DNA from: Caldisericaceae bacterium
GTDB taxonomy: Bacteria > Caldisericota > Caldisericia > Caldisericales > Caldisericaceae
Direction: 5' to 3'
Length of the DNA stretch: 64,000 nt
Assembly: GCA_027023025.1 (NCBI GenBank)
Contig: JALVXB010000002.1
Location: 1 to 64,000 of the forward strand
In this document: positions 15,571 to 50,828 of the stretch, in pieces
Position numbering within the stretch: position 1 is the first letter of the stretch
Layout: each line of letters begins with the position of its first letter
The notes under the pieces: model-generated
Database searches by the model: none
The model's input: only the letters and a program-made list of their open reading frames with translations
What the model was told of the DNA's origin: nothing
Program-made: the position numbers and the translations under genes

Positions 15571-15572
15571 GT

Positions 15573-16700: not shown

Positions 16701-16719
16701 ACTAGCGTAGGAAGACAAG

Positions 16720-16757
16720 CCCTCAGCATAGATCGCATTATGCTGAGGGTATTTTTT
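16720..16757 (+). terminator. attenuating stem-loop between BMP lipoprotein and ABC ATPase
   Basis: CCCTCAGCAT (16720-16729) pairs with ATGCTGAGGG (16740-16749) across ten bases, then TATTTTTT. A partial terminator here is a common way of making more binding protein than transporter. Locus 2 has an unrelated hairpin at the same place. Confidence 0.8.
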
Positions 16758-16773
16758 GTAAATGGAGGATGAT

Positions 16774-18303: not shown

Positions 18304-18313
18304 GAGGTGGAAT

Positions 18314-31328: not shown

Positions 31329-32075
31329 TTAAGTTTCGTTTATCTCGAATATGTATTTTTGGTTTGCTTTAACAAATTCACCGTAATCGCCTTTTTTTAA
31401 GGCAAGTTTTGCTTGTTCGATGTTCTTTGCCTTCATAGAAGCAATGTGCGTTATACCCGTTCCTTTAAGTAGTTCTGGTAAAATTTGTCCTGTTGCTCCA
31501 ACAAGAATAACACTTTTTGCATTTTTGGAGCGTTCAACGATAAGGTCGATTGTGTTGTTAACCAGTACAGATGCAGTTGAAATCACGATGTCCATTTCGG
31601 GAAGCATTGAATATTCAAGTGTGTCGCTTAATACTTCTTCGTGCCATAATCTGGTATTTCTTTCGAATACATAGACATTTTTCCCGTTTTCTTTTAGCTC
31701 TTTTACTAAAGGCGGCATATTTCCTATGACACCAATTTTGCCGTTTAAGTGAGTTATTATTTCGTTTATGTCTATTTGTATGCTGTTGTTAATGTTTATA
31801 TAGTATTGAGATACTGCGTTTACCGTTGCGAGTGCAAGTGTCCTTTCGATTATATTTTTAGATTCGATTGCACTAATAAATGTCGAAGTTGATACATCGT
31901 GAAAGCTGTTTTCGTAGTGCTGAACTTCCTCGGGTATGGTCATTGCAACACCCATAGAACATTTGCCATCTTTTTCTACGATTACATACGAATACGGCAA
32001 TCCAAAAGAAAAATCTTCAATGGAAAAGCCGTTAGATATTTTTTCTACTCGTTTCTTTATAATATTTAAAATCAT
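31329..32075 (-). CDS. DUF4213/DUF364 protein (putative heavy-metal chelation)
   Basis: 248 aa. The N-terminal part fits DUF4213 and the C-terminal part (VGATGQILPELL, IVISTASVLVNNTID) fits DUF364, a Rossmann-like fold suggested to bind heavy metals or a metal chelate. Members are often found beside FecCD-type metal transporters, as here. Last gene of the six-gene operon that starts with the Phd-like gene; 14 bases after the ABC ATPase, with its own AAAGGAG. The biochemical role is unknown. Confidence 0.82.
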   Translation of the reverse strand: MILNIIKKRVEKISNGFSIEDFSFGLPYSYVIVEKDGKCSMGVAMTIPEEVQHYENSFHDVSTSTFISAIESKNIIERTLALATVNAVSQYYININNSIQIDINEIITHLNGKIGVIGNMPPLVKELKENGKNVYVFERNTRLWHEEVLSDTLEYSMLPEMDIVISTASVLVNNTIDLIVERSKNAKSVILVGATGQILPELLKGTGITHIASMKAKNIEQAKLALKKGDYGEFVKANQKYIFEINET

Positions 32076-32089
32076 TTTTGGCTCCTTTG

Positions 32090-32857
32090 CTATAGTAATT
32101 TCTCTGGAATTATAAATCTTTTATTTCCTAACTTTACGAGTCGTGACTTAAGAGAATAAAGAAGATCTATGTTTTCTTCGGTAATTACCTCGTCTGTATT
32201 TCCGTTTTTTAGTATTGTTCCTTCTTTTAGCAAAAAAACTTTGTCACAAAAACTTAACGCAAGATTTGGATCGTGTAACGAAACGAGGACAAGTTTCTTA
32301 AATCTTTTGGCAATTTTATTTATTACGGTAAGAACAATTAATTGGTTTCTAAAATCTAAAAAAGAGGTAGGTTCGTCAAATAACATTAGTTGCCCATTTT
32401 GCGATAGCGCTCTTGCAATAAGCGTCAGTCTTTTTTCGCCGCCACTTAAGGAAGTAAACGGTATGTTTTCAAACTTTGCGAGCTTTAGAGTCTGAATGGC
32501 TTTTTTGGTTTCTTCGATATCTTCTTTTTTAGGTCCTTCAAGTATGTTTATGTGTGGATTTCTACCCATAAGAACTATTTCAAATACCGTGTAAGGAAAG
32601 TTTACAGAAAATTCTTGGGGTGCATACGAAACAAACTTTGCCCTTTCCTTAAAGTTAAGTTTTTCTATACCTCTTTTATTTAGTTGAATTTCTCCTGCCT
32701 TTGGATTAAGGATGCCAGCTATACACTTAAGGAGAGTGGACTTGCCAGCACCGTTTGGCCCAAGTAAACATCCTATTCCGCCGGTAAGTTGTAGATCTAT
32801 GTTTTTAAGAATCTCTTTTTTGCCGTATGAAAAGTAAAGATGTTTAATTTTTAACAT
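32090..32857 (-). CDS. FecE-type metal/chelate ABC transporter ATPase
   Basis: 255 aa from the ATG at 32857, preceded by AGGAG; an upstream in-frame TTG lacks a site. Walker A GPNGAGKST, signature LSGGEKRLT, Walker B LMLFDEPTS, H-loop VSLHD. Pairs with the FecCD permease upstream, whose 3' end it overlaps by 14 bases. Such systems import iron-siderophores, cobalamin, haem or oxyanions (MolBCA-type molybdate/tungstate). In this window, with Mo enzymes, molybdate or tungstate is attractive but unproved. Confidence 0.9.
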   Translation of the reverse strand: MLKIKHLYFSYGKKEILKNIDLQLTGGIGCLLGPNGAGKSTLLKCIAGILNPKAGEIQLNKRGIEKLNFKERAKFVSYAPQEFSVNFPYTVFEIVLMGRNPHINILEGPKKEDIEETKKAIQTLKLAKFENIPFTSLSGGEKRLTLIARALSQNGQLMLFDEPTSFLDFRNQLIVLTVINKIAKRFKKLVLVSLHDPNLALSFCDKVFLLKEGTILKNGNTDEVITEENIDLLYSLKSRLVKLGNKRFIIPEKLL

Positions 32858-33788
32858 ACTTAAATCTCCTGGCAAGTATCAGTATAAGTAGAGGTGCTCC
32901 GATTAGTGATGTAATAACGCTAATAGGTAATTCTGTTGCTGCTATTGAACGAGCTATGTCGTCACAGAAGAGTAACAAAGTTGCTCCAACAAATGCAGAT
33001 GCAGGAACGAGCCTTCTATTGTCATAGCCTACTAATAATCTTGCAATGTGGGGGGATACAAGTCCTATCCATCCTATTATTCCTCCTATTGCCGTTGCAG
33101 AAGAAACAGAAAGTGCTGCAAGAACAATAATAACTTTTCTGTAAATGTTTACATTTAAGCCAAGTGATTTTGCTTCGCTATCGCCCAACGAGAGTATATT
33201 AAATGGCCAGCGTAAGAGAACTATTCCTATAATTCCTATCGATATTGGAAGAAGCAGGAATAAAAGATCTCTCCACCTCATTCCTGAGAAACTGCCAAGC
33301 AACCAGAAAACTATTGTGGGTAATTTATCGTATGGGTCGGCCATGTACTTTGCCATGCCTACCATTGAAGTAAACAGTGCAGACACCGCAATACCGGCAA
33401 GTAATAACCCTACTATACCATTGCCTACTAATTTGCTCATTTTGTACGCAATAGTTACTGCGATAATTCCAAAGATAAAAGAAGACAGTTGTATGTACAA
33501 GGGATTAAAAGAGAAGAACAGGATTGCAAGTACGGCCCCAAGGGCTGCACCACTACTTGCTCCTACGATATTAGGTCCTGCCAGGTAATTTCTGAACAAG
33601 TTCTGAAATGCAAGTCCTGCAAGTGAAAGCCCTGCTCCTGCAAGTGATGCAATTATTATTCGTGGTAATCTAACATCAAGCAGGATAGTTTTGCTTAATG
33701 TAGAAAAGTGCAATGGATTAACTAACAATCTTCCTGTAAATAACGAACCAATAAACACGAGGATGTACAGCGTTAAAAATTTTTTCAA
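32844..33788 (-). CDS. FecCD-type ABC transporter permease
   Basis: 314 aa with about nine to ten membrane segments. LPRIIIASLAGAGLSLAGLAFQ near the N-terminus begins with the FecCD/BtuC signature, and GGIIGWIGLVSPHIARLL is the coupling-helix region. TTG start after GGGAG. It overlaps the binding-protein gene by four bases and the ATPase gene by 14. Confidence 0.92.
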   Translation of the reverse strand: MKKFLTLYILVFIGSLFTGRLLVNPLHFSTLSKTILLDVRLPRIIIASLAGAGLSLAGLAFQNLFRNYLAGPNIVGASSGAALGAVLAILFFSFNPLYIQLSSFIFGIIAVTIAYKMSKLVGNGIVGLLLAGIAVSALFTSMVGMAKYMADPYDKLPTIVFWLLGSFSGMRWRDLLFLLLPISIGIIGIVLLRWPFNILSLGDSEAKSLGLNVNIYRKVIIVLAALSVSSATAIGGIIGWIGLVSPHIARLLVGYDNRRLVPASAFVGATLLLFCDDIARSIAATELPISVITSLIGAPLLILILARRFKYVKN

Positions 33789-34855
33789 TTCAAGTCTCCC
33801 ACTATTTTTATTTTGTCTATATCGAGGTTATAGAATTTTTTGTAGAAATTTGCTGCTTCTTCTTTTACATTTAAGCTGCCGAAAATTTCAGGGTGTATTG
33901 TTTTAGCCATCCAGTATAAACCCAGTATCCACTTTGGGGCAGGATAGTCCCAGCTTTCACCGTCGTTAGGCATTGCGTAAACCTTTCCTGATTTTACGGC
34001 CCTTATGTTTTTCCACGCAACATCATTCATTATCGTTTTTTTAAGATCTTCGCTTGTGTATTTAAGGGAATAGCTTACGGTAATTATTATGTCGGGATTC
34101 CATTTTGCTACTTGCTCGACATTTACGATATTCCATCCACCGGGAAGCGTATTTGATACACTTTCGCCACCTGCCATATTTATAATTGTGTTCTGAAAGT
34201 ATTCCTTTCCTGGTACTTTTAAAGATTTACTTCTCATGCTGTACTCTACGAGCATAACTTTTGGTTTGTTTTTGATTGTATTTGTTTTTTTCAATATTTT
34301 CTGCATATTTTCGTTGTAGTAATCGATAATCGAACGGGCTCTCTGTTCGTCGTTTAATATTTTACTTAATATCTCAATACTTTTAATGTAGTTTTTAGGA
34401 GTTTCCATGTTTAATGTAATTATTGGTATTTTAAGATTCCCAAGTTGTTTTTTAACCTGTTCGCTATTCCAAAATGCAGCAATTACGAGATCAGGATTAA
34501 TCTTTGCTATTTCTTCTACATTAGAACCATTTGGAGATGTAACCAATTTCATCTTTTTTGATACATCCGGGTAGGCTAACTTTATAAAAGCGTCGTTTAC
34601 TGCCATTTTTGTACTTCCAAAAACTTTATCTCCTTCTCCCATAAGAAACAGTGTTTGAGTAGCAAGTCCATACATTGAAACGATTTTTTGAACTGGTTGT
34701 TTAACTTTTATTTCTGTACCTGAGAAGTCTGTTATTGTAATAGTTTTTGTGCTTCTACTTGTTGATTGTTTACTCGAACAACCAGAAAGTGCAGATAGGG
34801 AAAGTAGGATAGTTAAAGCAACTACGATAATTCTAAGAATTGTTTTTCTATACAT
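33785..34855 (-). CDS. BtuF/FepB-type metal-chelate or oxyanion-binding lipoprotein
   Basis: 356 aa. Signal peptide ends at a lipobox LSGCSSK (near residue 26), then a Ser/Thr linker. Helical-backbone-type periplasmic binding domain: VQKIVSMYG, EIAKINPDLVIAA, NVEQVAKWNPDIIIT. It captures the ligand for the FecCD/FecE pair. Ligand unknown; the family also includes molybdate/tungstate-binding MolA. The gene overlaps the MobA-like gene upstream by eight bases and follows GAGGAGG. Confidence 0.88.
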   Translation of the reverse strand: MYRKTILRIIVVALTILLSLSALSGCSSKQSTSRSTKTITITDFSGTEIKVKQPVQKIVSMYGLATQTLFLMGEGDKVFGSTKMAVNDAFIKLAYPDVSKKMKLVTSPNGSNVEEIAKINPDLVIAAFWNSEQVKKQLGNLKIPIITLNMETPKNYIKSIEILSKILNDEQRARSIIDYYNENMQKILKKTNTIKNKPKVMLVEYSMRSKSLKVPGKEYFQNTIINMAGGESVSNTLPGGWNIVNVEQVAKWNPDIIITVSYSLKYTSEDLKKTIMNDVAWKNIRAVKSGKVYAMPNDGESWDYPAPKWILGLYWMAKTIHPEIFGSLNVKEEAANFYKKFYNLDIDKIKIVGDLN

Positions 34856-35462
34856 TATGTACCTCCTCTTTTAGGTGGACTTCTTTAAATAATATTTTTG
34901 AGAAGTATTTTAAGCCTTGCTCCTTTCTAATGTGTTTTATTCTTGAAAATCCGCTTTGGCTAATCACTATTGGATGCATTCGTTCGTTGGACACGAGGGG
35001 AATCGCAAAATCAATGTGTTTAAGCAGGACGACTTTTAAAAATCTGTCTAATAAGTTTGTGTTAAGCTGATTTTTGCTTACTGGCGTAATGATTGCAAAT
35101 TTTGAGAAAGGGCTTATGCAAAATAATCCTTGTTTGACTGAGGTGATTATTGGAGAATTTCTTTTATTGTTTATCGTAAACTTTACATTTTGTAAGTGTA
35201 TAATATCCTGTAAGTCTTGCTTTTCATTTCCTACGATGATGACTTCTCTAATTGCCGGAATATTTCTATACGAATGCATAAGTTTGACTGCTTGATGCAG
35301 AGATTTTTCCTGTGCTGAAAGGAGTATTAGAGAGAAGTATGGATAATCACCAGGATTTACATACGGTTTAAAGGTATGTTTATCTTCGTAAGAAAAATCG
35401 ATACCTTCTGAAGAAAACCGCACTTTCAATTTGTTTAGTAAAATTACTTCTCTTCCAGCCAT
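34848..35462 (-). CDS. degenerate MobA/MocA-like nucleotidyltransferase-fold protein
   Basis: 204 aa. The overall order resembles MobA-like molybdopterin nucleotidyltransferases: a first strand FSLILLSAQEKS where the family has L(A)AGxSxRMG, then REVIIVGN, NSPIITSVKQGL (family: G.S.S...GL), FAIITPVSKN (family: DQP) and AIPLVSNERMHPIVIS (family: P.....GHPV). The glycine-rich loop, Arg and the metal-binding Asp are gone, so nucleotidyl transfer is unlikely. It could be a sensor or scaffold. It overlaps the Phd-like gene by 19 bases and the binding-protein gene by eight, exactly where a toxin gene would be expected after an antitoxin. Confidence 0.5.
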   Translation of the reverse strand: MAGREVILLNKLKVRFSSEGIDFSYEDKHTFKPYVNPGDYPYFSLILLSAQEKSLHQAVKLMHSYRNIPAIREVIIVGNEKQDLQDIIHLQNVKFTINNKRNSPIITSVKQGLFCISPFSKFAIITPVSKNQLNTNLLDRFLKVVLLKHIDFAIPLVSNERMHPIVISQSGFSRIKHIRKEQGLKYFSKILFKEVHLKEEVHNV

Positions 35463-38332: not shown

Positions 38333-38361
38333 TTGACAAAAGCACTCGCAAAGACTATACT
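38333..38361 (+). promoter_or_regulatory. consensus promoter of Mo-hydroxylase locus 2
   Basis: TTGACA at 38333-38338, 17-base spacer, TATACT at 38356-38361. It leaves an unusually long leader of about 150 bases before the first large gene. Confidence 0.8.
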
Positions 38362-38389
38362 AAAAAACAAAAAGGGTGGCGAAACCTGA

Positions 38390-38527
38390 ATGTCTGCAAT
38401 AGTGGGGAATTTAAAAAAGTTATTTTTAGGTGAAGTTCTAATTGTATTTAAAAGATCGTGTCCTGTAAAGATCGATAGATATTTTATCTTTAAATTTATC
38501 ATATTAGGGGGTGGAAATGGCATTTAA
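38390..38527 (+). CDS. possible 45-codon leader ORF before Mo-hydroxylase locus 2
   Basis: Open from ATG 38390 to TAA 38525-38527, overlapping the start of the Mo subunit (ATG 38517) by 11 bases. GGGTGG lies ten bases before its ATG. The product would be hydrophobic and basic, with no recognisable family. The leader also has two copies of AAAGATCG and an inverted repeat TAAAGAT/ATCTTTA. It may be a regulatory leader or chance. Confidence 0.25.
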   Translation: MSAIVGNLKKLFLGEVLIVFKRSCPVKIDRYFIFKFIILGGGNGI

Positions 38528-40913
38528 ATACATTGGCAAGAAAGCCACGAGGCCGAATGTATTAGAAAGAGTAACCGGAAAAGCTATTTTTGTTGACGAC
38601 ATTAGACTTCCACAGATGCTTTATGCAAAAATTCTCTACCCAAAGTACGCTCATGCAAAAATTCTTTCTATTGACACAAGTGAAGCTGAGAAGATGCCAG
38701 GCGTTGTTAAAGTTGTTACAGGAAAAGGAATTAAGCATCCTTACGGTGATTGTCTTCACGATAGAGTGCCGATGGCCGTAGACAAAGTTCGTTACATTGG
38801 TGAACCTGTTGCAGCAGTGATAGCAGATACGGAGCGCCATGCAAGAGCTGCCTTAAGTAAAATAAAAGTAGAATACGAACCTCTTCCAGTTTATACTGAT
38901 GCATTAGATGCAATGAAAAAGGACGCCGTTCTAATTCACGAAAATCTTGATAAGTACTTTTATGTGACTCCTCTTTACAAGCCTACTCCGGGAACGAACA
39001 TTGCTTTATCCTATGAAATTAAGAAAGGTAACATCGAAGAAGGGATCAAACAGGCTGATGTAATCGTTGAAAAAGAATTTGTTTTTCATCACATGTCTTC
39101 TGTTGCAATTGAACCCCACACTGCGATTGCTATGCACCATCCTAATGGAATGATAGAAATATGGACTGCGAATGTGGGTCCTTTTGCCGTAAGGGAACAA
39201 GTTGCCGAATTTTTTGGAAAGAATGTCAGCGATGTAAGGGTGCATGTGCCGCACATTGGTGGATGTTTTGGATATAAATCGGATCCTTCGATTGAGCCAC
39301 TTGCTGCATATATTGCAAGTTTTGTGCCTGGCCGTCCCGTAAAACTTAAACTTACGAGAACAGAAGATTTTACGAGCACATTTATCGGTAGGGGTATGAG
39401 GGCACATGTAAAAGTAGGTGCAACCAAAGACGGTAAACTTACTGCGCTTGAAGAAACACTATATCTGTCAACTGGTGCTTATGCAGATACTGGCACAAAT
39501 GTACTTATAGTTTCCGTTCAGGCATCAGGTGGTGTTTATTACTTTCCTAATGCTCATGTGAAGGGGTATTCTGTCTATACAAATACTCCTCCCGTAGGTG
39601 CATTGAGAGCCTACGGGCATCCGGAAGCACAATTTGCTATTGAGAGAATGATGGATTTGCTTGCAAGAGAGTTGAATATGTCTCCTATTGAGATTAGAAA
39701 AAAGAACTTTATTACTGAAGGTAAAACAAATGTCGTAGGTGAGAAATTCAAGGCAAGTGATGGAAACTTGTTTAAGTGTCTTGAAAATGTAGTTGAGGCT
39801 ATACCTCCAGAAGAAGGACATAAAGAAGATGACGATTATTACTATGGTGTGGGCTATGCGGGATTGATAAAGGCACCTAAAGCCGCAACTTTTGCTTCTA
39901 AAGGATGCCATATAAAATTTAATGTAGATGGAACTGTTTCTTTGAATATGTCTGGAGGAGATGTAGGGCAGGGATTGTGGACGGTTGCCCGTCAGATAGC
40001 GGCTGAAGCATTAAAAATGCCACCCGAAAAAATCCGCGTATACAGTGAAATAGACACCCAATATTCACCGTGGGAATGGCAGACAGTTGGTTCTATGTTT
40101 ACTTTTCAGGGAGGAAATGCGATTATTCGTGCTGCAAACAAAGCAATTGATATTTTAAAGAAAAATGCTTCGCTTGTACTCGGAAGAGATCCTGATATGT
40201 TGGAATATGACGGAGAATATGTGTATGATAGGTCCTATCCTGATGTAAGAGTTGCGGTTAAAGACATTTGCCGTGGCTACGTAAAACCTGACGGAACGAC
40301 CATTGGAGAAGTAGTAAATGTAACGAGTTATTTTAGACTTCCTGGTGTTCAGAATCCTGACCCGGAAACTGGAATGGGTAGAACTGGTGGAAGCTATACG
40401 ATGGGGGTGCAGGGTGTAAAGTTGCGTATAAATAAGCATACCGGTGAAATCAAAGTAGAACATGTGGCAACTTCTATTGATGTAGGTAAGGTGATTTACC
40501 CTAAGGGAGCAGAAGGACAGGTGCTTGGTGGTGTCGTCCAGGGATTGGGAGAAGCATTATTTGAGCAAATTCGTTTTAAGGAAAATGGTGCACTCGAAAA
40601 TCCGAACCTTATTAAGTATAAAATCCCTCGTCTTGAAGACATACCGGACAAGTTTACTATAAAGTTTGTTGAAACCCCCGACGCGATAGGGCCTTACGGT
40701 GCGAGAGGTCTTGGTGAGCATCCTGTGATTGGTGTTCCTCCTGCCGTTGTAAATGCTATTTATAATGCGATTGGCTACGATTTCTACGAGGTCCCTGTTA
40801 CGAGTGATATGATTAAGAAAGTCCTGGAAGAAAAAGGCATGCTTAAAGAGCAGCCCAATGAAACTACTAAGGCTTCCTTAAGTGAAACTGTAGATAGAGA
40901 TAAGGAGGGATAG
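38517..40913 (+). CDS. molybdopterin-binding subunit of a second Mo hydroxylase (locus 2)
   Basis: 798 aa from the ATG at 38517, after AGGGGGTGG; a GTG six bases earlier overlaps that site. Same family as the locus 1 subunit but clearly divergent. N-terminal TGKAIFVDDIRL, then GGCFGYKSDP, LRAYGHPEAQ (for the usual FRG(F/Y)G), GGDVGQGLW and, near the end, GARGLGEHPV with the expected catalytic Glu. Hydroxylates an N-heterocycle or aldehyde. Only a 2Fe-2S gene follows; no FAD subunit is encoded in this locus. Confidence 0.92.
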   Translation: MAFKYIGKKATRPNVLERVTGKAIFVDDIRLPQMLYAKILYPKYAHAKILSIDTSEAEKMPGVVKVVTGKGIKHPYGDCLHDRVPMAVDKVRYIGEPVAAVIADTERHARAALSKIKVEYEPLPVYTDALDAMKKDAVLIHENLDKYFYVTPLYKPTPGTNIALSYEIKKGNIEEGIKQADVIVEKEFVFHHMSSVAIEPHTAIAMHHPNGMIEIWTANVGPFAVREQVAEFFGKNVSDVRVHVPHIGGCFGYKSDPSIEPLAAYIASFVPGRPVKLKLTRTEDFTSTFIGRGMRAHVKVGATKDGKLTALEETLYLSTGAYADTGTNVLIVSVQASGGVYYFPNAHVKGYSVYTNTPPVGALRAYGHPEAQFAIERMMDLLARELNMSPIEIRKKNFITEGKTNVVGEKFKASDGNLFKCLENVVEAIPPEEGHKEDDDYYYGVGYAGLIKAPKAATFASKGCHIKFNVDGTVSLNMSGGDVGQGLWTVARQIAAEALKMPPEKIRVYSEIDTQYSPWEWQTVGSMFTFQGGNAIIRAANKAIDILKKNASLVLGRDPDMLEYDGEYVYDRSYPDVRVAVKDICRGYVKPDGTTIGEVVNVTSYFRLPGVQNPDPETGMGRTGGSYTMGVQGVKLRINKHTGEIKVEHVATSIDVGKVIYPKGAEGQVLGGVVQGLGEALFEQIRFKENGALENPNLIKYKIPRLEDIPDKFTIKFVETPDAIGPYGARGLGEHPVIGVPPAVVNAIYNAIGYDFYEVPVTSDMIKKVLEEKGMLKEQPNETTKASLSETVDRDKEG

Positions 40914-40915
40914 TT

Positions 40916-41398
40916 ATGCAAGCGGTTAATGTTACTTTGAATGGGGAAAAGAAGACTGTGTATATAGAAGGAGGAGAAACCCTTCTTGATGTACTGAGGG
41001 AAAACTTAGAACTTACAGGTACAAAATATGGTTGCGGCCAGGGTGCTTGTGGTGCTTGCACGGTTGTGGTAAACGGCGAAGCAGTTAAGAGTTGCATGGT
41101 TTTATTCAGAAGATTGGAGGGTGCTGAGATCCTTACGATTGAGGGTATATCTGATGGTGTCCACTTGCATCCTATACAGAAAGCCTTTGTTGACGCTGAT
41201 GCAGTTCACTGTGGTTTTTGCACACCAGGAATTATAATGGAATTGTATGCACTTTTTACAAAAAACCCTGATGTTAGTGAAGAGGAAATTAAAAAAGCAT
41301 TAAATAAGCATTTGTGTAGATGTACAGGCTACCTTCCATTGATTGAGGCTGCTAAACTGGCTCAAAAATATTATAAAGAATCCCTGAAGGAGGTGTAA
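40916..41398 (+). CDS. 2Fe-2S subunit of Mo hydroxylase (locus 2)
   Basis: 160 aa. GCGQGACGACTV plus a downstream Cys (KSCMV) for the ferredoxin-type cluster, and CGFCTPG and CRCTGY for the second. All ligands present. It lies two bases after the Mo subunit and two before the amidohydrolase. Without a FAD subunit it must hand electrons to another partner, such as a ferredoxin or the locus 1 FAD subunit. Confidence 0.93.
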   Translation: MQAVNVTLNGEKKTVYIEGGETLLDVLRENLELTGTKYGCGQGACGACTVVVNGEAVKSCMVLFRRLEGAEILTIEGISDGVHLHPIQKAFVDADAVHCGFCTPGIIMELYALFTKNPDVSEEEIKKALNKHLCRCTGYLPLIEAAKLAQKYYKESLKEV

Positions 41399-41400
41399 AC

Positions 41401-42624
41401 TTGGAAGAAAAATTTGACATTGTGGTCAAGAATGCAAAGTTAAGAAAAGGAGGTGGTAAATCTTTCAGTATTGCCGTAAAGGACGGAAAAGTTGCAAAAA
41501 TTTCAGAAGATGGTGATTTTAACGGAAAGGTTGTAATTGACGCAGAAGGTAATCTCGTTACTGAGTCATTTGTGAACACGCATTTACACCTGTGTAAGGT
41601 GTACACACTTGAGATGATGGATGAAGATGCATTGAAAGATTATCATGGGGAAACGATGGGAAAGGCGATGACTGCCATTGAACTTGCTGCGCGTATAAAG
41701 GAGCGCTACAATGCGGATTGGATTATTAAGAATGTAAGGAAGGCATTGAATCTTGCGGCGAGAAACGGTGTAACTCACATTCGTGCCTTTGCTGATGTAG
41801 ATAATAAAGCAAAATTAGAAGGAATTAAAGCGTTATTACAGGCAAAGGAAGAATATAAGGATGTAGTGGAATTACAGGTAGTAGCCTTTCCTCAAGACGG
41901 CGTTGTAAGGGAGCCTGGAGCTAAAGAACTCGTAGAAGAAGCTGTTAAGATGGGTGCTGATGTAGTGGGTGGTATTCCGTGGATAGAATATACTGAGGAG
42001 GACGAACAGGCGCATATTGATGCGATGTTTGAAATTGCGGAGAAGTACGACAAAGACATTTCTATGTTGGTAGACGATGCAGGAGATCCTACGCTTAAAA
42101 CACTCGAAATGCTCGCCGTAAAAACGATTAAAGAAGGGCGTTTTGGTAGAAGCCTTGCACACCATGCAAGAGCAATGCAACTCTATCCAGAGCCTTACTT
42201 CCAGAAGTTGGTAGCCTTGCTTAAAAAGGCGCAGATGGGTGTAGTAAGTGATCCTCATACTGGTCCATTGCATGCGCGTGTAAGAGAAATGCTTGCAGAA
42301 GGTGCGCTTGTGGTTCTTGGACAGGATGACATCTCTGATGCATACTATCCGTACGGAAGAAACAATATGTTGGAAGTAGTATTCTTAAATTCTCACTTGT
42401 TGTGGATGACCACGAAGCAGGATATGGAAAAACTTTACGATATGGTAACAGTAGATGCAGCTAAAGCAATGAATGTGAAGAATTTCGAACTGAAAGAAGG
42501 GAATTCTGCGAATTTCGTCGTACTTAAAGAAGACAGTATAAGGGAAGCCATCCGAAATCATGACGAACCGCTTTATGTGGTGAGTCACGGTAAGTTGGTT
42601 GATAAAGATAAATATAAAAATTAA
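41401..42624 (+). CDS. cytosine deaminase-like amidohydrolase with altered metal site
   Basis: 407 aa, TTG start after GGAGGTG. Overall order follows CodA-type cytosine deaminase: NTHLHL near residue 59, AHHARAM near 258, GQDDISDAYYPYGRNNML near 310. Where CodA has VHCDE (metal His and proton-shuttling Glu), this has MLVDD near residue 221, so one metal ligand and the catalytic Glu are replaced by Leu and Asp. It may act on a different cyclic amine or amide, or use another metal arrangement. Third gene of locus 2, between the Mo hydroxylase and the transporter. Confidence 0.75.
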   Translation: MEEKFDIVVKNAKLRKGGGKSFSIAVKDGKVAKISEDGDFNGKVVIDAEGNLVTESFVNTHLHLCKVYTLEMMDEDALKDYHGETMGKAMTAIELAARIKERYNADWIIKNVRKALNLAARNGVTHIRAFADVDNKAKLEGIKALLQAKEEYKDVVELQVVAFPQDGVVREPGAKELVEEAVKMGADVVGGIPWIEYTEEDEQAHIDAMFEIAEKYDKDISMLVDDAGDPTLKTLEMLAVKTIKEGRFGRSLAHHARAMQLYPEPYFQKLVALLKKAQMGVVSDPHTGPLHARVREMLAEGALVVLGQDDISDAYYPYGRNNMLEVVFLNSHLLWMTTKQDMEKLYDMVTVDAAKAMNVKNFELKEGNSANFVVLKEDSIREAIRNHDEPLYVVSHGKLVDKDKYKN

Positions 42625-42674
42625 TAAAAATTAATTCTTTAGTCTAAATTAAATTTAAGAAAGGAGGGTCTGAT

Positions 42675-43703
42675 ATGAAGAAGAAAGTATTAGCAATTTT
42701 ACTTGTGGTATTTATGGTTTCTGTTCTTTTTGCAGGTTGTTCTTCTGCGCAGAAGCCTCAACAGCAGAAACCTGCTGAACAGAAATCTACTGAAAAAGTG
42801 ATCAAGGTGGCAGCTGTTTACGCAACACCTATAGAGGAGCCCTGGGATGGGGCAATTCACAAAGCGTTGTTAAAAGCTAAAAAAGAGCTTGGAATCCAAT
42901 ACGATTGGACCGAAAATGTAGGATATGCTGACTTTGAAAAAGTTTTAAGAGAGTATGCTGACAAAGGGTATGATATTATTTTCGGTGATGCATTTGGCTC
43001 AGAAGACGCAGTGAGGCGCGTTGCAAAAGATTATCCAAAAATTGCCTTTGTATTTGGGTCAGGTGAAGGTCCAATGGATCCGAACCTTTCTGTGTTTGAC
43101 GACTGGATTCAAGAACCTGCGTATCTTTGTGGTTTAATTGCGGGAAAAATTACGAAGACTAACATTGTTGGCGTGGTGGCAGGTGTCCCAGTGCCAGAGG
43201 TAAATAGGATTGTTAACGCATTTATTTATGGTGTAAAGGAAGTTAATCCTAAAGCAAAAGTTCTTGTATCATTCATTGGAAGTTGGTTTAACCCTACTAA
43301 AGCAAAAGAAATGGCGCTTGCAGAAATTCAAAAGGGTGCTGATGTAATGTATGCTGAGAGGTACGGAGTAATTGATGCATGTAAAGAAAAACATGTTTAT
43401 GTTTTTGGTAATTTGCTTGACCAGCATTCTCTTGCGCCTAATTATGTTATTACGGGGCCGGTTTGGGATATGTGGCCTACCGTAAAGTATGTAATAGAAT
43501 CGGTCAAGAATGGAACATATCATGCGCAAGATTTGAGAGAGTGGTCCATGATGGCAAAAGGTGGTGCAAAACTTGCACCTTTCTATCAATTTAAGGATAA
43601 ATTACCTAAAGATGTGTTAGAGCTTGTTCAGAAAAAAGAGGAGGAAATAAAAGAAGGTAAGTTTAGAGTTCCTATTAACGAAGCTCCTCCGAAAAGTGGT
43701 TAA
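42675..43703 (+). CDS. BMP/PnrA-family substrate-binding lipoprotein (locus 2)
   Basis: 342 aa. Lipoprotein signal with lipobox LFAGC, Gln/Lys-rich linker, then a Med/BMP domain: EEPWDGAIHKAL, YADKGYDIIFGDAFG, IAFVFGSGEG. Paralogue of the locus 1 lipoprotein but quite divergent, which suggests a different ligand. AAGGAGGG precedes the ATG. No terminator separates it from the amidohydrolase gene 50 bases upstream. Confidence 0.9.
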   Translation: MKKKVLAILLVVFMVSVLFAGCSSAQKPQQQKPAEQKSTEKVIKVAAVYATPIEEPWDGAIHKALLKAKKELGIQYDWTENVGYADFEKVLREYADKGYDIIFGDAFGSEDAVRRVAKDYPKIAFVFGSGEGPMDPNLSVFDDWIQEPAYLCGLIAGKITKTNIVGVVAGVPVPEVNRIVNAFIYGVKEVNPKAKVLVSFIGSWFNPTKAKEMALAEIQKGADVMYAERYGVIDACKEKHVYVFGNLLDQHSLAPNYVITGPVWDMWPTVKYVIESVKNGTYHAQDLREWSMMAKGGAKLAPFYQFKDKLPKDVLELVQKKEEEIKEGKFRVPINEAPPKSG

Positions 43704-43725
43704 CTTTGAGGCTGTATAATTCTAC

Positions 43726-43759
43726 GGCACAGAGCAGAATGCTCTGTGCCAAATTTTTA
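43726..43759 (+). terminator. attenuating stem-loop after the second BMP lipoprotein gene
   Basis: GGCACAGAGCA (43726-43736), three-base loop, TGCTCTGTGCC (43740-43750), then AAATTTTT. Eleven perfect base pairs. Same position as the hairpin of locus 1 but different sequence. Confidence 0.8.
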
Positions 43760-43771
43760 TAAGGGGTGGAT

Positions 43772-45307
43772 ATGGAAAAAGAAAAAATTATTGAGATGCG
43801 TAATATCCGCAAAACTTTCTTAAACAATGTAGCGAATAATAACATTAACTTTGTAGTTTATAAAGGAGAGATCGTTTCACTTCTTGGAGAAAATGGTGCT
43901 GGTAAAACAACCTTAATGAAAATCCTCTATGGAATGTATACTAAAGATAGTGGAGAGATATTTGTTAATGGAAGAAAAGTGGAAATAAATTCCCCAAAGG
44001 ATGCTATTGCGCTTGGAATTGGTATGGTTCACCAGCACTTTACTCTCGTGAGGACACTTACAGTTTTGGAAAATGTTATACTTGGGCTGCCTTCTCCAAA
44101 AGGAATAAATCTTGACTTCGATTACGCAAGGAAAAGATTAGAAGAGATTATTCAGCGATACGGACTCGTCGTGAATCCTGATGCTAAAATCTGGCAATTA
44201 TCTGTGGGGGAAAGGCAAAGGGTTGAAATTATTAAAGCATTATATAGAAATATTAATGTTTTAATACTTGACGAACCTACAGCTGTATTAACCCCACAAG
44301 AAGTAGAGGAATTGTTCAAAACATTAAGAATTTTTAAGAAGGAAGGAAAAAGTATAGTTTTTATTTCTCATAAATTAGAAGAAGTAATGGAGATTAGTGA
44401 CCGTATCGTAATTTTAAGGAACGGAGTCGTTACGGGAGAGCGGAGAAAAGAAGAAACGAATGCCAGAGAACTTGCTCGTCTAATGGTAGGTAGGGAAGTA
44501 ATAGAAGTTTTAAGAGAAAAAACTTCAGTTACGAAAAGGTCTCCCTTATTAAAAGTCAAAGAATTGAAGGCTTTAAATGATAAAAACCTCGTTGCGCTAA
44601 AAGGTATTTCTTTCTCTGTTAACAAGGGTGAGATTTTGGGGGTTGCTGGAGTGGCAGGAAACGGACAAAGAGAACTTGAAGATGTAATTTGCGGTGTGCG
44701 AAAACCGATTAGTGGCCACATTTTCCTTGATAATGACGAGATATCTGGCAAATCTCCAAAGGAAATAATTAGGCTTGGTGTAGGAAGAATTCCTGAAGAC
44801 AGGATGGAGTCAGGCCTTATATTGGATTTGCCATTATATGAGAACCTCGTTATTGAATTCTACGATAAGCCACCTTTTTCTAAAGGAATGTTAATTGATT
44901 ATAAAAATATTAAAAGATTTGCTCAAAAGCTTATAAAGGAGTATCGAATCAAGACGGCAAGTATAGATGTTAAAACGAGAACTTTATCTGGAGGGAATTT
45001 GCAAAAAGTCATTTTAGCGCGTGTGCTTTCTCAATCTCCTAAGTTTATAATAGCCTCTCAGCCTACAAGAGGATTAGATGTGGGTGCTATGGAATATATT
45101 CATGAAAAACTATTAGAGGCTCGTAATAATGGTGCAGGGGTTTTGCTAATTTCTGAGGATTTACACGAAGTATTGAATCTCAGTGACAGAATTATGGTTA
45201 TGTACGAAGGTGAAATTATGGGTATTATAGATAGGTCGAAAGAAAAAGTTGACATTGAAGAGCTTGGTCTTATGATGGCAGGGGCGAAAAGGAGGAAAGT
45301 GTCATGA
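43772..45307 (+). CDS. nucleoside-type ABC transporter ATPase, duplicated domains (locus 2)
   Basis: 511 aa from the ATG at 43772, preceded by AAGGGGTGG (a GTG at 43766 overlaps this site). N-half: GENGAGKTT, LSVGERQRVEI, LILDEPTAV. C-half: GVAGNGQREL and LSGGNLQKV. RbsA-like, as in locus 1. The next gene starts in its stop codon (ATGA). Confidence 0.92.
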   Translation: MEKEKIIEMRNIRKTFLNNVANNNINFVVYKGEIVSLLGENGAGKTTLMKILYGMYTKDSGEIFVNGRKVEINSPKDAIALGIGMVHQHFTLVRTLTVLENVILGLPSPKGINLDFDYARKRLEEIIQRYGLVVNPDAKIWQLSVGERQRVEIIKALYRNINVLILDEPTAVLTPQEVEELFKTLRIFKKEGKSIVFISHKLEEVMEISDRIVILRNGVVTGERRKEETNARELARLMVGREVIEVLREKTSVTKRSPLLKVKELKALNDKNLVALKGISFSVNKGEILGVAGVAGNGQRELEDVICGVRKPISGHIFLDNDEISGKSPKEIIRLGVGRIPEDRMESGLILDLPLYENLVIEFYDKPPFSKGMLIDYKNIKRFAQKLIKEYRIKTASIDVKTRTLSGGNLQKVILARVLSQSPKFIIASQPTRGLDVGAMEYIHEKLLEARNNGAGVLLISEDLHEVLNLSDRIMVMYEGEIMGIIDRSKEKVDIEELGLMMAGAKRRKVS

Positions 45308-46374
45308 GTTGGCCTACAATAAAATTAGAAAAGCGTATGCCACCCCCCGTGTGGTTTCAAGTCCTTACACCTGTAATTGCGGTCTTTATTTCACTTCTTA
45401 TTTCGGCGGTATTTATTTTGATTCTTGGCAAGAACCCTTTAATAGCTTTTTATTACATACTTAAAGGTTCTATAGGAACATGGTTTGCGTTTAAGGAAAT
45501 GCTCGTTAAAGCAGCGCCTTTAATTCTTACAGGTGTCGCTGTTGCAATTGCATTTATAGCGAAGTATTGGAATATAGGTGCAGAAGGTCAGTTATATGCA
45601 GGTGCACTTGCAGCTACATGGATAGGTATGCTCAATTTACCACTTCCAAAGCCGGTCTACATACTTTTAGTTATTACTGTGGGCTTTATTGCTGGTGCAA
45701 TATGGTCAGGCATACCCGGTTATTTAAAAGCAAAGCTCAAAGTAGACGATGTAGTAACTACATTGCTTATGAATTACATTATGATTTATACAGTAAGTGC
45801 TTTACTGAATGGGCCGTGGAGAAATCCTGTAACTATGTATCCTTCTTCTACACCTATTGCACAAAATGCGAGATTTCCTATTATAATTCCGCGCTCCCGT
45901 GTGCATTTCGGTTTAATTATATCTTTACTTGCGGTTTTGTTTATGTACTTCCTCGTCAGGAAAACAAAACTTGGTTTTGAAATAAGAGCAACGGGAGCAA
46001 ACCCTTCTGCTGCTAGATTTCTTGGAATTGATACGATTAAGTCTATCATAGTTATATCAATAATAAGTGGAGGAATAGCAGGACTTGCTGGTGTAGGGGA
46101 AGTTGCAGGTGTTCATTATCACCTGATAAGTGGTTTATCACCCGGATATGGTTACAGCGGAATAATAATAGCAATGCTTGGAAGATTGAATTCAATAGGT
46201 GTGTTACTTGCTGCAATTTACTTTGCAATTATTATAAATGGAGCTCAATTTATGAGTATTACTTTAAATATACCTTCTTATATAGCTACCGTAATCCAGG
46301 GAATTACACTTATCGTTATGCTTGCTATGCTTCTATTATTTGAGTATCGAATAAAGATAGGGAGGTCGAAATGA
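45304..46374 (+). CDS. ABC transporter permease 1 (nucleoside type, locus 2)
   Basis: 356 aa, hydrophobic throughout, with YWNIGAEGQLYAGA and GANPSAARFLG as in BMP-linked permeases. Overlaps its neighbours by four bases on both sides. Confidence 0.9.
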   Translation: MSWPTIKLEKRMPPPVWFQVLTPVIAVFISLLISAVFILILGKNPLIAFYYILKGSIGTWFAFKEMLVKAAPLILTGVAVAIAFIAKYWNIGAEGQLYAGALAATWIGMLNLPLPKPVYILLVITVGFIAGAIWSGIPGYLKAKLKVDDVVTTLLMNYIMIYTVSALLNGPWRNPVTMYPSSTPIAQNARFPIIIPRSRVHFGLIISLLAVLFMYFLVRKTKLGFEIRATGANPSAARFLGIDTIKSIIVISIISGGIAGLAGVGEVAGVHYHLISGLSPGYGYSGIIIAMLGRLNSIGVLLAAIYFAIIINGAQFMSITLNIPSYIATVIQGITLIVMLAMLLLFEYRIKIGRSK

Positions 46375-47309
46375 ATACCGGATTTTGGACTCTAACATTC
46401 TGGGTTGGATTTCTTGCCGCCACGGTCAGGATGGCTACCCCTTTAATTATTGCTACCCTTGGAGAAACTTTTGCTGAGCGTTCCGGCGTTCTTAATTTGG
46501 GTATAGAAGGAATGATGATATTTGGAGCGTTAGCGGGGTTTCTGACGACATACTTTACGAAAAGTTTGTGGCTCGGCGTATTAGTTGCTACTTTATCTGG
46601 GATAGCATTTGGCTGGCTGATGGCTTTTTTAACGGTTACTCTAACACTTAGCCAGCATGTTTCTGGGTTGGGAATTACTATATTCGCTAGTGGATTGGCT
46701 TATTATACATATAGGGCTGCAATTGGTTCTCCTACTGTGCCTCCCACGATAAAAGCTTTTTCAACTCTTAAGATCCCCCTACTCTGGAAAATTCCCATTA
46801 TAGGGCCTATATTGTTTGATCAATATGCAATTACTTACATTGGAATTCTTCTCGTTCCGCTTGCAGGTTATTTAATTTACAAAACGACATTTGGATTATC
46901 ACTCCGTGCAGTTGGTGAAAATCCTGAGGCAGCAGATGCGATGGGTATAAATGTTTACAGAATTCGTTACACAGCGCTTATTATAGCTGGGGGTCTTGCA
47001 GGCTTGTCAGGTGCATTTTTTACTCTTGCAGAATTTAACATGTTCTTGTACGACATCGTTGCAGGTAGAGGATGGGTAGCGATAGCGCTCGTTATTTTTG
47101 CAAATTGGATACCGTCTAAAGTTTTATGGGGTGCTTTGTTCTTTGGCAGTATAGACGCCATCGGTTTGAGATTACAGGGTACTGCTATTAAAGTGCCGTT
47201 TCAAGTATATTTAATGCTTCCGTATATTTTTACTATTATTGTACTTATACTTATTGCAAGGAATGCATCTTATCCGTCTGCCTTGCTTAAACCATACAGA
47301 AGAGAATGA
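46371..47309 (+). CDS. ABC transporter permease 2 (nucleoside type, locus 2)
   Basis: 312 aa, hydrophobic. GETFAERSGVLNLGIEGMM and ENPEAADAMGINVYRIRY mirror the second permease of locus 1. Last gene of locus 2. Confidence 0.9.
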   Translation: MNTGFWTLTFWVGFLAATVRMATPLIIATLGETFAERSGVLNLGIEGMMIFGALAGFLTTYFTKSLWLGVLVATLSGIAFGWLMAFLTVTLTLSQHVSGLGITIFASGLAYYTYRAAIGSPTVPPTIKAFSTLKIPLLWKIPIIGPILFDQYAITYIGILLVPLAGYLIYKTTFGLSLRAVGENPEAADAMGINVYRIRYTALIIAGGLAGLSGAFFTLAEFNMFLYDIVAGRGWVAIALVIFANWIPSKVLWGALFFGSIDAIGLRLQGTAIKVPFQVYLMLPYIFTIIVLILIARNASYPSALLKPYRRE

Positions 47310-47394: not shown

Positions 47395-48942
47395 ATGGAT
47401 GCACATAAATTAGTTGAACAATTGGAAGAAAAAAAGAAACAGATCTATGCTCAGGGGGGGGAGAAAGCAATATCAAAACAGCACGCAAAAGGAAGACTTA
47501 CGGCGAGAGAACGCATTGACTTACTCGTTGATCCTGGTTCTTTTGAAGAGTTTGATATGTTTGTAAAAACTCGGTCTACCTACTTTGGGCTTGATAAAAA
47601 GAACATTCCTGCAGATGGAGTTGTAACAGGTCTTGCTACGGTAAATGGCAGAAGAATTGCTCTTTATGCTCAGGACTTTACTGTGGTAGGTGGTTCGCTG
47701 GGGGAAATGCATGCCCTAAAGATTGCTAAAATGCAAGATATGGCGATGAAACTCGGCATTCCGTTTATTGGGATGAATGATTCCGGGGGAGCTCGTATCC
47801 AGGAAGGTGTTGACTCTCTCAGGGGATATGGGGAAATTTTCATAAGAAATGTTCGGGCATCTGGTGTAATTCCACAAATCTCTCTTGCTATGGGGCCTAC
47901 GGCTGGAGGTGCAGTTTACTCTCCTGCCATGATGGACTTTATAATTATGACGAAGCACGCAATGATGTATATAACTGGACCCGAAGTGGTCAAGGCTGTC
48001 ACTGGAGAAGTCGTTTCTCACGAGGACTTAGGTGGTGGCCTCGTGCATAACCAAAAAAGTGGAGTAGCTCATTTCCTTGCTGAAGACGACAAGGAAGCAA
48101 TTGAGAAGCTTAAAATCCTACTGTCTTATTTGCCGGATAATTACTTGCAGACTCCTCCTTTTGTAGAAACTGGCGATTCTGTAGAGCGTGAAATTCCTGA
48201 ATTGATAGATCTCGTACCTACAGACCCAAATAAAGGTTACGATGTAAAAGAAGTAATCAAAGCAGTTTTAGACAATGGTGATTTTTTTGAGGTCCAGGAA
48301 CTATACGCACAAAATGCCGTGGTTGGTTTTGGAAGGATTGGTGGTAATGTAGTTGGTGTAGTTGCGAACCAGGCAAGGTATCTCGCTGGGGTATTGGATA
48401 TAAACTCTTCTGATAAAATTGCGCGGTTTGTGAGATTCTGTGACGCGTTCAATATTCCATTAATCACTTTTGTTGACACTCCTGGATATCTTCCTGGCGT
48501 CGCACAGGAGCACGGCGGTGTTATAAGGCATGGTGCTAAAGTCCTTTACGCTTATTCTGAGGCCACAGTTCCAAAAATTACTGTGATTTTAAGGAAATCT
48601 TACGGTGGAGCATACATTGCAATGTGTTCTCGTCATTTGGGTGCAGATGCCGTCTTTGCGTTTCCACAAGCAGAGATTGCTGTTATGGGAGCAGAAGGTG
48701 CTGCGAATATTATATTTAGAAAGGAAATTAAAGCTGCAGAGGACCCGGATAAATTAAGAGCGGAAAAAATTGAAGAATATCGTAAAGAATTTGCAAATCC
48801 GTATAGAGCAGCCGAAAGGGGTTACATTGACGATGTAATAAATCCCAAAGATACTAGAAAAATTGTTGCAAAGACTCTTAATTACTTAAGAAGTAAGAGT
48901 GAGTCAATGCCAGAAAAGAAACACGGCAATATTCCACTATAA
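47395..48942 (+). CDS. mmdA: methylmalonyl-CoA decarboxylase / acyl-CoA carboxylase carboxyltransferase subunit
   Basis: 515 aa, typical of MmdA/PccB. KGRLTARERIDLLVDPGSFEE near the N-terminus opens a family signature, with NDSGGARIQEG and GPTAGGAVYSPA in the N-domain and KSYGGAYIAM in the C-domain. Transfers the carboxyl group between an acyl-CoA and carrier biotin. The following OadG-like, biotin-carrier and MmdB genes make it the alpha subunit of a sodium-pumping decarboxylase and not a biosynthetic carboxylase, as no biotin carboxylase is present. GGGAGG precedes the ATG. Confidence 0.92.
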   Translation: MDAHKLVEQLEEKKKQIYAQGGEKAISKQHAKGRLTARERIDLLVDPGSFEEFDMFVKTRSTYFGLDKKNIPADGVVTGLATVNGRRIALYAQDFTVVGGSLGEMHALKIAKMQDMAMKLGIPFIGMNDSGGARIQEGVDSLRGYGEIFIRNVRASGVIPQISLAMGPTAGGAVYSPAMMDFIIMTKHAMMYITGPEVVKAVTGEVVSHEDLGGGLVHNQKSGVAHFLAEDDKEAIEKLKILLSYLPDNYLQTPPFVETGDSVEREIPELIDLVPTDPNKGYDVKEVIKAVLDNGDFFEVQELYAQNAVVGFGRIGGNVVGVVANQARYLAGVLDINSSDKIARFVRFCDAFNIPLITFVDTPGYLPGVAQEHGGVIRHGAKVLYAYSEATVPKITVILRKSYGGAYIAMCSRHLGADAVFAFPQAEIAVMGAEGAANIIFRKEIKAAEDPDKLRAEKIEEYRKEFANPYRAAERGYIDDVINPKDTRKIVAKTLNYLRSKSESMPEKKHGNIPL

Positions 48943-48957
48943 TAGGTGATTAGATAA

Positions 48958-49284
48958 ATGAACATACACGAGCTCAATCAAGGTATACTTTTAGGTCTAA
49001 TGGCAATGGTGGGCGTTTTCATAGTGCTTGCCTTGATAGGTCTGATTCTATATGCATTTGAACTTTTGCTTTATAAGAAAGAGGAAAAAGGGATAGATAC
49101 CGGCCGCCCAAAAGTTGAAGTAGAAGAAGGGATACCTAAGAAAGTAGTTGCAGCAATAGTATCTGCGATATATGCAAAGCAGTATATACCAGTAAGTATA
49201 TCGACCAGAATAACTATTAGACATAAAAAAAAGAATTCAGTTTATAAGAAAATAAAGGAGAAGAGGTGGAAAAACAATGGTTAA
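48958..49284 (+). CDS. OadG/MmdD-like small membrane subunit of the decarboxylase
   Basis: 108 aa. One N-terminal membrane helix (residues about 12-35), then a charged region ending in a very basic tail. This is the gamma/delta subunit that anchors alpha and carrier to the membrane beta subunit. It overlaps the biotin-carrier gene by eight bases. The family is poorly conserved, so the call leans on position and topology. Confidence 0.75.
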   Translation: MNIHELNQGILLGLMAMVGVFIVLALIGLILYAFELLLYKKEEKGIDTGRPKVEVEEGIPKKVVAAIVSAIYAKQYIPVSISTRITIRHKKKNSVYKKIKEKRWKNNG

Positions 49285-49699
49285 AAAGTTTAAAGTAAAG
49301 GTGAATGGGGAAGAATTTAATGTCGAAGTAGAAGAAGTAGTAGAGGGCTCTGCTATGTCTAACCCGAGTGGTAAAGTTGCTGAACCTTCTACTACTGTAA
49401 GGGAAGTAGCAGAAGTGCCGAAGTCAGGTGAAGGAAAGACGGCACAAAGTAGTACTTCAGATAGAAGAGGGGGGGATATATCTGGAAAGAAGGTAGTTTC
49501 AGCCCCGTTGCCCGGGAAAATTATCTCAGTAAATGTTAAAAAAGGCGACTTCGTTAAAAAAGGCGATTTATTGCTCATATTGGAAGCAATGAAAATGGAA
49601 AACGAAATTTTTGCTTCTACTGACGGAAAGATCGTCGATATATTAGTTTCACCGGGTGATTATGTTTCTACTGGCGATAAAATGATCGTAATGGAGTAG
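49277..49699 (+). CDS. biotin carrier subunit of the decarboxylase
   Basis: 140 aa. A short N-terminal region, a low-complexity Ser/Thr/Pro/Gly linker (about residues 25-70) and a biotinyl domain with EAMKMENEI, whose Lys is the biotin attachment site. A substrate for BirA at 37599-38288. It shuttles CO2 from the alpha to the membrane beta subunit. Confidence 0.92.
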
Positions 49700-49703
49700 T
49701 TTT

Positions 49704-50828
49704 ATGTCTGATATAATTATCCAACTTGCAAAGCAAAGTGGTTTTTACCTTATTACATGGAAAGAGATCGTAATGATCTGTATAGGACTATTGCTTATAT
49801 ACCTTGCTATATACAAGCAATCTGAGCCATTACTTCTTTTGCCTATTGGTTTTGGATGTATTTTAACGAATCTTCCTTTGTCTGGTTTAATGAGTTCTCA
49901 TCCGGTAGGTTTATTTTATTTTCTTTATAAGTATGGGGTTTCTACAGAAATCTTTCCTTTGTTGATATTTATGGGAGTAGGTGCAATGACGGATTTTGGT
50001 CCTTTAATTGCAAACCCTTGGACTATTTTGCTTGGAGCTGCTGCGCAATTTGGAGTGTTCCTTGCATTGATCGTTTCGTTACTTTTGGGATTTAGCTTGA
50101 AGCAATCAGCGTCAATTGCTATTATCGGAGGTGCTGATGGTCCTACCTCGATTTATACTGCCGTAAAACTTGCACCGCAACTCTTAGGCGCTATCGCCGT
50201 TGCTGCTTATACTTATATGTCTTTAGTGCCAATTATACAACCTCCCATAATGAAGTGGATTACTACTAAGAAAGAGCGCAGTGTGGTGATGGAACAGTTA
50301 CGGCCTGTTTCAAAACTCGAGAAGATACTATTTCCTATTGTAGTTACGATTATTATCAGTCTTTTATTTCCTGCGGTGGCCCCACTTATTGGAATGCTTA
50401 TGTTAGGAAACTTATTTAGGGAATCTGGTGTTGTAGAAAGATTATCTCATACTGCTGCAAACGAACTTATTAACATTACGACAATTTTACTTGCAACTAC
50501 CGTTGGCGGAACGATGAGAGCAGAATCTTTTCTTACTCTTCAGACATTGGAAATTATAGGATTAGGAATTATTGCATTTGGCGGAAGTACTCTGGGTGGC
50601 GTTCTGTTAGGAAAACTTTATTACTATTTAAGTGGTGGCAAAATAAATCCTTTGATAGGCTCTGCGGGTGTTTCTGCTGTACCAATGGCAGCTCGTGTTT
50701 CACAAAAAGTGGGACAAGAAGAGAACCCTGGTAACTTTTTGTTGATGCACGCTATGGGGCCTAATGTTGCTGGTGTTATTGGAACTGCTGTGGTAGCTGG
50801 TATTATGATTTCTATGCTCGCACATTGA
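49704..50828 (+). CDS. mmdB: sodium-pumping decarboxylase beta subunit
   Basis: 374 aa, about nine to eleven membrane segments. [16 protein letters not shown]-type and [12 protein letters not shown] motifs with conserved Asp residues match OadB/MmdB/GcdB, which couple carboxybiotin decarboxylation to Na+ export. Substrate may be methylmalonyl-CoA, oxaloacetate or glutaconyl-CoA; the alpha subunit favours methylmalonyl-CoA. Confidence 0.92.

Follow-up and report, generated by a model that had tools for sequence, protein, structure and literature searches.

A forward-strand operon in a Caldisericaceae bacterium (GenBank assembly GCA_027023025.1, contig JALVXB010000002.1) encodes the molybdenum (Mo) subunit and the 2Fe-2S subunit of a Mo hydroxylase, a CodA-like amidohydrolase, and a four-gene BMP-type ATP-binding cassette (ABC) importer. 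It occupies positions 38511-47309 of the window, which is the whole stretch of 64,000 nucleotides analysed here, and its features are collected in Table 1. Two properties set it apart, namely the absence of a gene for the flavin adenine dinucleotide (FAD) subunit and the altered active sites of its enzymes. The host genome, labelled G000, is of the Caldisericaceae type, 1.66 Mb in size and 99.9% complete, and the relatives labelled G001 and so on are genomes of the phylum Caldisericota, mostly draft assemblies. Intergenic gaps of 2, 2, 50, and 62 bp together with two gene overlaps fit a single operon, in agreement with an earlier note on this DNA, which had assigned the Mo, 2Fe-2S, CodA-like, and BMP-transporter genes to one operon behind a consensus promoter. 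That promoter is supported by comparable 11/12 matches 5' of the Mo genes of seven relatives (G001, G002, G006, G010, G012, G014, and G023), although the promoter scan overall found no more sites than chance predicts (24 found, 24.0 expected). Translation of the Mo subunit probably starts at the ATG at 38517.

Table 1. Features of the operon (window coordinates).
Feature	Coordinates	Strand	Evidence
Sigma-70-like promoter, TTGACA-N17-TATACT	38333..38361	+	11/12 match
Mo (molybdopterin) subunit, xanthine oxidase-family hydroxylase	38511..40913	+	Open reading frame, Pfam; orthologs 56-97% identity; clade support 100/100
[2Fe-2S]2 subunit, eight cluster Cys retained	40916..41398	+	Pfam; alignment
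CodA/AtzC-fold amidohydrolase, metal site apparently remodelled, TTG start	41401..42624	+	Pfam, PDB similarity, alignment; purifying selection
BMP/PnrA-type substrate-binding lipoprotein, predicted heterocycle-type pocket	42675..43703	+	Pfam, PDB similarity, alignment
11-bp hairpin separating binding-protein and ATPase genes, position conserved	43726..43750	+	Hairpin scan and relatives
ABC ATPase, two ABC domains	43766..45307	+	Pfam, NCBIfam
ABC permease 1	45304..46374	+	Pfam, NCBIfam
ABC permease 2, final gene of the operon arrangement shared with relatives	46371..47309	+	Pfam, NCBIfam, loci of relatives

The Mo subunit matches Ald_Xan_dh_C (PF01315), MoCoBD_1 (PF02738), and MoCoBD_2 (PF20256), and its partner matches Fer2 (PF00111) and Fer2_2 (PF01799), all above cut-offs; the remaining genes match Amidohydro_3, Bmp, ABC_tran (twice), and BPD_transp_2 (twice). 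The NCBIfam models checked agree with these families, but all scores lie below the curated cut-offs, and no specific function is therefore assigned by them. With Mo-cofactor domains, a two-cluster 2Fe-2S subunit, and the catalytic Glu, the enzyme carries the features of the xanthine oxidase family. The nearest named record of its Mo subunit is Caldisericales S143_107, at 97% identity.

No FAD subunit gene was found within or near the operon. Profile searches of G000 returned four MoCoBD_2 (Mo), four Fer2_2 (2Fe-2S), and three FAD_binding_5 (FAD) proteins, so that the present operon, described in the earlier note as a second Mo hydroxylase module, is in fact one of four such loci. All three FAD genes adjoin other Mo genes, namely those at locus 1 (window 3130-21581), C21:103269-105602, and C21:15160-17427, and therefore none is surplus in trans for the operon. 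The same deficit is seen among the relatives: Fer2_2 exceeds FAD by one in the operon-bearing genomes G000, G001, G006, G009, G012, G014, G023, G027, G031, and G035, and the two counts are equal in G003, G004, G007, G008, G011, G013, and G019, which belong to the two families of the operon and are devoid of the Mo/2Fe-2S gene pair. Deviating values in four drafts of 80 to 390 contigs (+2 in G005 and G010, 0 in G002 and G016) are likely caused by contig breaks at these genes, and in family f2, whose fragmented assemblies are without the operon, the difference was +1 in G042 and G047 and -1 in G046. On these counts, a dedicated FAD gene in trans was rejected, and the enzyme does not have the make-up of a heterotrimeric xanthine dehydrogenase (XDH). 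The statement of the earlier note that there is no FAD subunit is thereby upheld both in cis and in trans, and the co-inherited FAD gene elsewhere that it had named as contrary evidence did not appear.

A different way of supplying the flavin would be for the Mo/2Fe-2S pair to borrow the FAD subunit of another locus, making it a normal heterotrimer with a shared subunit. This is conceivable in a genome that encodes three FAD subunits as well as a closest paralogous trimer whose Mo subunit is 40% identical, but each FAD gene stands beside its own Mo gene, and the flavin-side loop of the 2Fe-2S subunit is relaxed in the operon clade, with Gly46 also lost in two of its members (G027 and G023), so that such borrowing is regarded as unlikely. 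Maturation is probably common to the Mo hydroxylases; XdhC (PF02625) is present as one copy in G000, in a C21 cluster, and as one copy in nearly all relatives with Mo hydroxylases.

The ancestry of the Mo subunit points to an enzyme that once had its flavin partner. Among 34 Mo subunits in a tree whose root serves for drawing only and in which the FAD-less 1sij forms a long branch yet falls within the "FADlinked" label, the 13 operon members form a single clade (support 100/100), sister (97/99) to FAD-linked trimers that include the trimer beside AllG, AllH, and an FdrA-like CoA-ligase. Because the clade stands beside FAD-linked trimers, the simplest reading is that the FAD subunit was probably lost in the Mo line of the operon. 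Pocket residues were numbered via a human XDH fragment, which matches PDB chain 2ckj at all but one residue, and the roles of bovine XDH Glu802, Arg880, Phe914, and Glu1261 are those that we take to be generally accepted. The catalytic Glu (Glu1261) is retained as GEH in 13/13 orthologs, Ser occupies the column of Glu802 and either Val or Ala that of Arg880, and Phe914 is Tyr. The subunit also scores 484 bits against the NCBIfam XdhA model, below the cut-off of 780, and thus has neither the residues nor the score of a purine-specific xanthine dehydrogenase; the locus 1 Mo subunit likewise differs at the Glu802 and Arg880 columns. The segments GGCFGYKSD and SPWEWQT are invariant across the 13 orthologs. 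Of the two cofactor-pocket motifs cited in the earlier note, GGCFGYKSD thus holds for the whole clade, but LRAYGHPEA marks a sub-lineage, since LRAYGHPE is confined to family f1, to which the window belongs, and family f3 has YRGYGYQ or FRGYGYQ.

In the 2Fe-2S subunit, all eight cluster Cys are kept. In most FAD-linked partners, the flavin-side cluster loop reads CxxGEC or CxxGDC, and its acid is replaced by A, T, V, or S in the operon clade; because the 2Fe-2S partner at locus 1 is likewise without the acid, though FAD-linked, the acid-less loop is only a hint of FAD loss. A precedent for an enzyme without a flavin of its own is the aldehyde oxidoreductase (AOR) of Desulfovibrio gigas, which contains no FAD and for which flavodoxin acts as a pseudo-subunit in vitro (PMC10223205). 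Classical flavodoxin (PF00258), the one flavodoxin-like family searched, gave a single weak match in G000 and was absent from the operon-bearing G001, G002, G009, G027, and G031, and it is therefore unsupported as a universal partner. Given this inconsistency, a ferredoxin would be more likely than classical flavodoxin as the soluble electron carrier.

The same precedent raises the possibility that the Mo enzyme is not a heterocycle hydroxylase at all but a two-polypeptide, FAD-less aldehyde oxidoreductase with a soluble carrier as in D. gigas. The GGCFGYK and RAYG motifs match GGTFGYK and RGYG of 1sij, XDH Glu802 and Arg880 are replaced, and the D. gigas enzyme is itself FAD-less and flavodoxin-using in vitro. 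However, the tree places the operon members apart from 1sij, although the 1sij branch is long, the flavodoxin is missing from the five genomes named above, and the neighbouring genes encode an importer of the heterocycle type and a hydrolase with a deaminase fold; an aldehyde oxidoreductase is accordingly held to be improbable. The operon enzyme further differs from D. gigas AOR, a single polypeptide, in being encoded by two separate genes, and in being accompanied by an importer and an amidohydrolase.

The nearest PDB entries of the amidohydrolase are the E. coli cytosine deaminase CodA (1k6w) and the N-isopropylammelide amidohydrolase AtzC (5akq), and in CodA numbering, for which, as for the CodA metal ligands, the generally accepted assignment is used, His61, His63, Gln156, His246, Asp313, and Asp314 are kept. 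Of the four metal ligands (His61, His63, His214, and Asp313), three are present and His214 is Leu; His214 to Leu, Asp65 to Cys, and Ser245 to His are found in every ortholog readable there. By contrast with these orthologs, homologs from Haloarcula, Tritonibacter, Shinella, and Enterococcus, as well as second CodA-like proteins of the same phylum, retain His214 and Asp65. The linked changes suggest that the metal site has been rebuilt. The protein scores 261.6 bits against PRK07572 (cut-off 438) and 234 bits against PRK09230 (cut-off 483), below both, and the ratio of nonsynonymous to synonymous substitution rates (dN/dS) is about 0.05 to 0.16 for pairs with estimable dS, indicating strong purifying selection. 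In view of the linked site changes and this selection, the term "CodA-like hydrolase" used in the earlier note remains apt for the fold family and not for the activity. A second CodA-like hydrolase, with His214 intact, adjoins another BMP importer in G006 and G019 (L099 6282-7511 and L100 6222-7475).

The substrate-binding lipoprotein is nearest to AtzT (6pi5) and the purine binder 3s99. AtzT binds guanine and 2-hydroxyatrazine through a pocket formed by Tyr45, Ser97, Glu165, Trp194, Asn218, and Asn220, and 3s99, a Brucella BMP lipoprotein, was modelled with adenine (PMC6834077). In the alignment, onto which AtzT numbering maps exactly for 9/9 residues, the operon lipoprotein retains Phe98, Glu165, Trp194, and the stacking aromatics, with Tyr45 replaced by Trp, but it has Ala at position 97, a gap at Asn218, and Glu at position 220 in a loop two residues shorter than in AtzT, so that the pocket (Trp, Ala, Glu, Trp, gap, Glu) is not that of an AtzT-type purine-base binder. 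Its counterpart at locus 1 retains Ser97 and, like 3s99, carries Asp at position 220. A heterocycle is likely to be the ligand of both lipoproteins, and because Ala97/Glu220 stands against Ser97/Asp220, the two ligands probably differ. The redundant-copy explanation, in which the module would degrade the same purines as locus 1, draws on the presence of BMP-type importers and Mo hydroxylases at both loci and on the purine-type character of locus 1; it is considered very unlikely, as the binding proteins differ at these purine-contact positions and the Mo subunits, 35% identical, fall into different clades, the one in the operon being without equivalents of XDH Glu802 and Arg880 (where locus 1 differs too). 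The distinct heterocycle proposed in the earlier note is thus favoured as far as the difference from locus 1 is concerned, and that the compound is a heterocycle we infer from the pocket. The complete transporter that it described is present here with all four genes but is not obligate, being absent from the operon of family f3. A hairpin between the binding-protein and ATPase genes, at 16701-16761 in locus 1, is present in every BMP operon of the phylum looked at and probably serves unequal expression.

Across Caldisericota, the components are nested. Hydrolase orthologs (at least 65% identity) occur in 17/54 genomes of the phylum, the Mo and 2Fe-2S genes in 14 of these 17 and never without the hydrolase where contigs allow, and the transporter in the operon in nine genomes, with family f3 carrying the core of Mo, 2Fe-2S, and hydrolase genes alone. 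G019 and G023 are collinear over 17 kb (81-84% identity) except that in G019 the Mo and 2Fe-2S genes are cleanly absent with zero remnant, and its hydrolase is intact and under constraint. Since G023, G031, G035, and G027 carry both genes, it is simplest to assume that G019 lost them. The G007 hydrolase ortholog (L093 8661-9856), also without the pair, is frameshifted near codon 66. No relative of the hydrolase was found in viral contigs, plasmid searches yielded solely homologs at about 35% identity or less, and nothing was found at E <= 1e-85 among the 4, 291, and 101 genomes of three further phyla, though without a positive control, so that restriction to Caldisericota is not shown. This distribution lends itself to a reading in which the hydrolase is the core enzyme with a function of its own, and the Mo/2Fe-2S pair and the transporter are optional additions that widen the substrate range. 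The nesting (17 > 14 > 9), the natural deletion in G019, and the continued constraint on the stand-alone hydrolase favour it, and against it stands the frameshift in G007, which hints at dependence on the Mo enzyme in that lineage; this reading has an appreciable chance of being correct, although we would not put it at even.

The reading to which we give modest preference is that the operon serves the uptake and the oxidative-hydrolytic catabolism of an N-heterocyclic compound via an FAD-less Mo heterodimer and then the hydrolase. The BMP-type importer would take up a flat aromatic heterocycle, as the lipoprotein pocket suggests, and the Mo/2Fe-2S heterodimer, probably derived from an FAD-containing heterotrimer of the xanthine oxidase family, would hydroxylate a ring carbon at the Mo centre. 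Electrons may then pass through the two [2Fe-2S] clusters to a soluble carrier rather than to a dedicated flavin subunit, by analogy with the Desulfovibrio aldehyde oxidoreductase, and the CodA-fold amidohydrolase would contribute to this pathway, most likely at a step following the Mo enzyme. Several points weigh against this proposal. The operon enzyme could make use of FAD subunits belonging to the three other enzymes, and the resemblance of GGCFGYK and RxYG to aldehyde oxidoreductase leaves room for an aldehyde substrate. The hydrolase is intact without the Mo and 2Fe-2S genes in G004 and G019, and therefore the hydrolase and the Mo enzyme are not strictly interdependent. The AlphaFold models of the Mo subunit and the hydrolase, for which only four close sequences were eligible, have pLDDT values of 32 and 50, too low for pocket or metal-site geometry to be read from them. 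A more far-reaching version, in which this would be an N-heterocycle pathway so far found in Caldisericota only, with a flavin-free Mo hydroxylase passing electrons directly to ferredoxin and an amidohydrolase whose rebuilt site (Leu214, Cys65, and His245) has a new metal, substrate, or reaction type, appears rather doubtful.

Comparison with known systems helps to delimit the module. The FAD-containing XdhABC-type heterotrimers, including the paralogs on C21 and at locus 1, share with it the Ald_Xan_dh_C and MoCoBD domains, a separate eight-Cys 2Fe-2S subunit, and the catalytic Glu. The module departs from them in having no FAD gene at its locus and none to spare elsewhere in the genome, in the residues of the Glu802 and Arg880 columns, and in the altered flavin-side loop. 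FAD-less heterodimers of the isoquinoline 1-oxidoreductase and NicAB type have a similar subunit make-up. In alphaproteobacterial operons on Shinella and Tritonibacter plasmids, a BMP importer likewise adjoins a CodA-like hydrolase, with a related pocket (AERFG, GERIG), but Mo and 2Fe-2S genes are absent within the stretch read and the hydrolase keeps His214. The operon offers a phylogenetically placed xanthine oxidase-family enzyme whose flavin subunit was probably lost while catalytic residues and selection were kept, paired with an amidohydrolase without a canonical metal ligand in every readable genome. Both the electron exit that replaces the flavin and the role of the rebuilt site are testable, and the clean natural deletion in G019 provides a comparison genome. 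The findings also add to the view that Caldisericota degrade nitrogen heterocycles, the 1.66 Mb host genome encoding four Mo hydroxylases.

Several observations concern the surroundings of the operon and other loci of the host. Methylmalonyl-CoA decarboxylase-type genes (47395-50828) lie directly 3' of the operon in the G000 window and in G001; they were rejected as part of it, not being directly downstream in G006, G009, G010, G014, and G016. An Rfam search of the window gave no match. Locus 1 resembles a gene cluster for purine/urate-type degradation under anaerobic conditions, with an XdhD-like Mo trimer, SsnA, adenine deaminase, an allantoinase-like protein, YgeY, carbamoyltransferase, carbamate kinase, and a BMP importer. 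At G000:C21:96000-114000 lies the Mo trimer that, of those in this genome with an FAD subunit, is most closely related to the operon; it is accompanied by AllG, AllH, a cyclase, the FdrA-like CoA-ligase, and a xanthine/uracil permease, and at G000:C21:4000-22000, a Mo trimer of split gene order is found with PreT/PreA-like, MocA-like, and SsnA-like proteins and the sole XdhC of the genome. Finally, window 31329-35462, close to a MogA gene, encodes a BtuCDF-type ABC importer together with a DUF364/DUF4213 protein and a transferase resembling MocA, and may serve the uptake of molybdate or tungstate.

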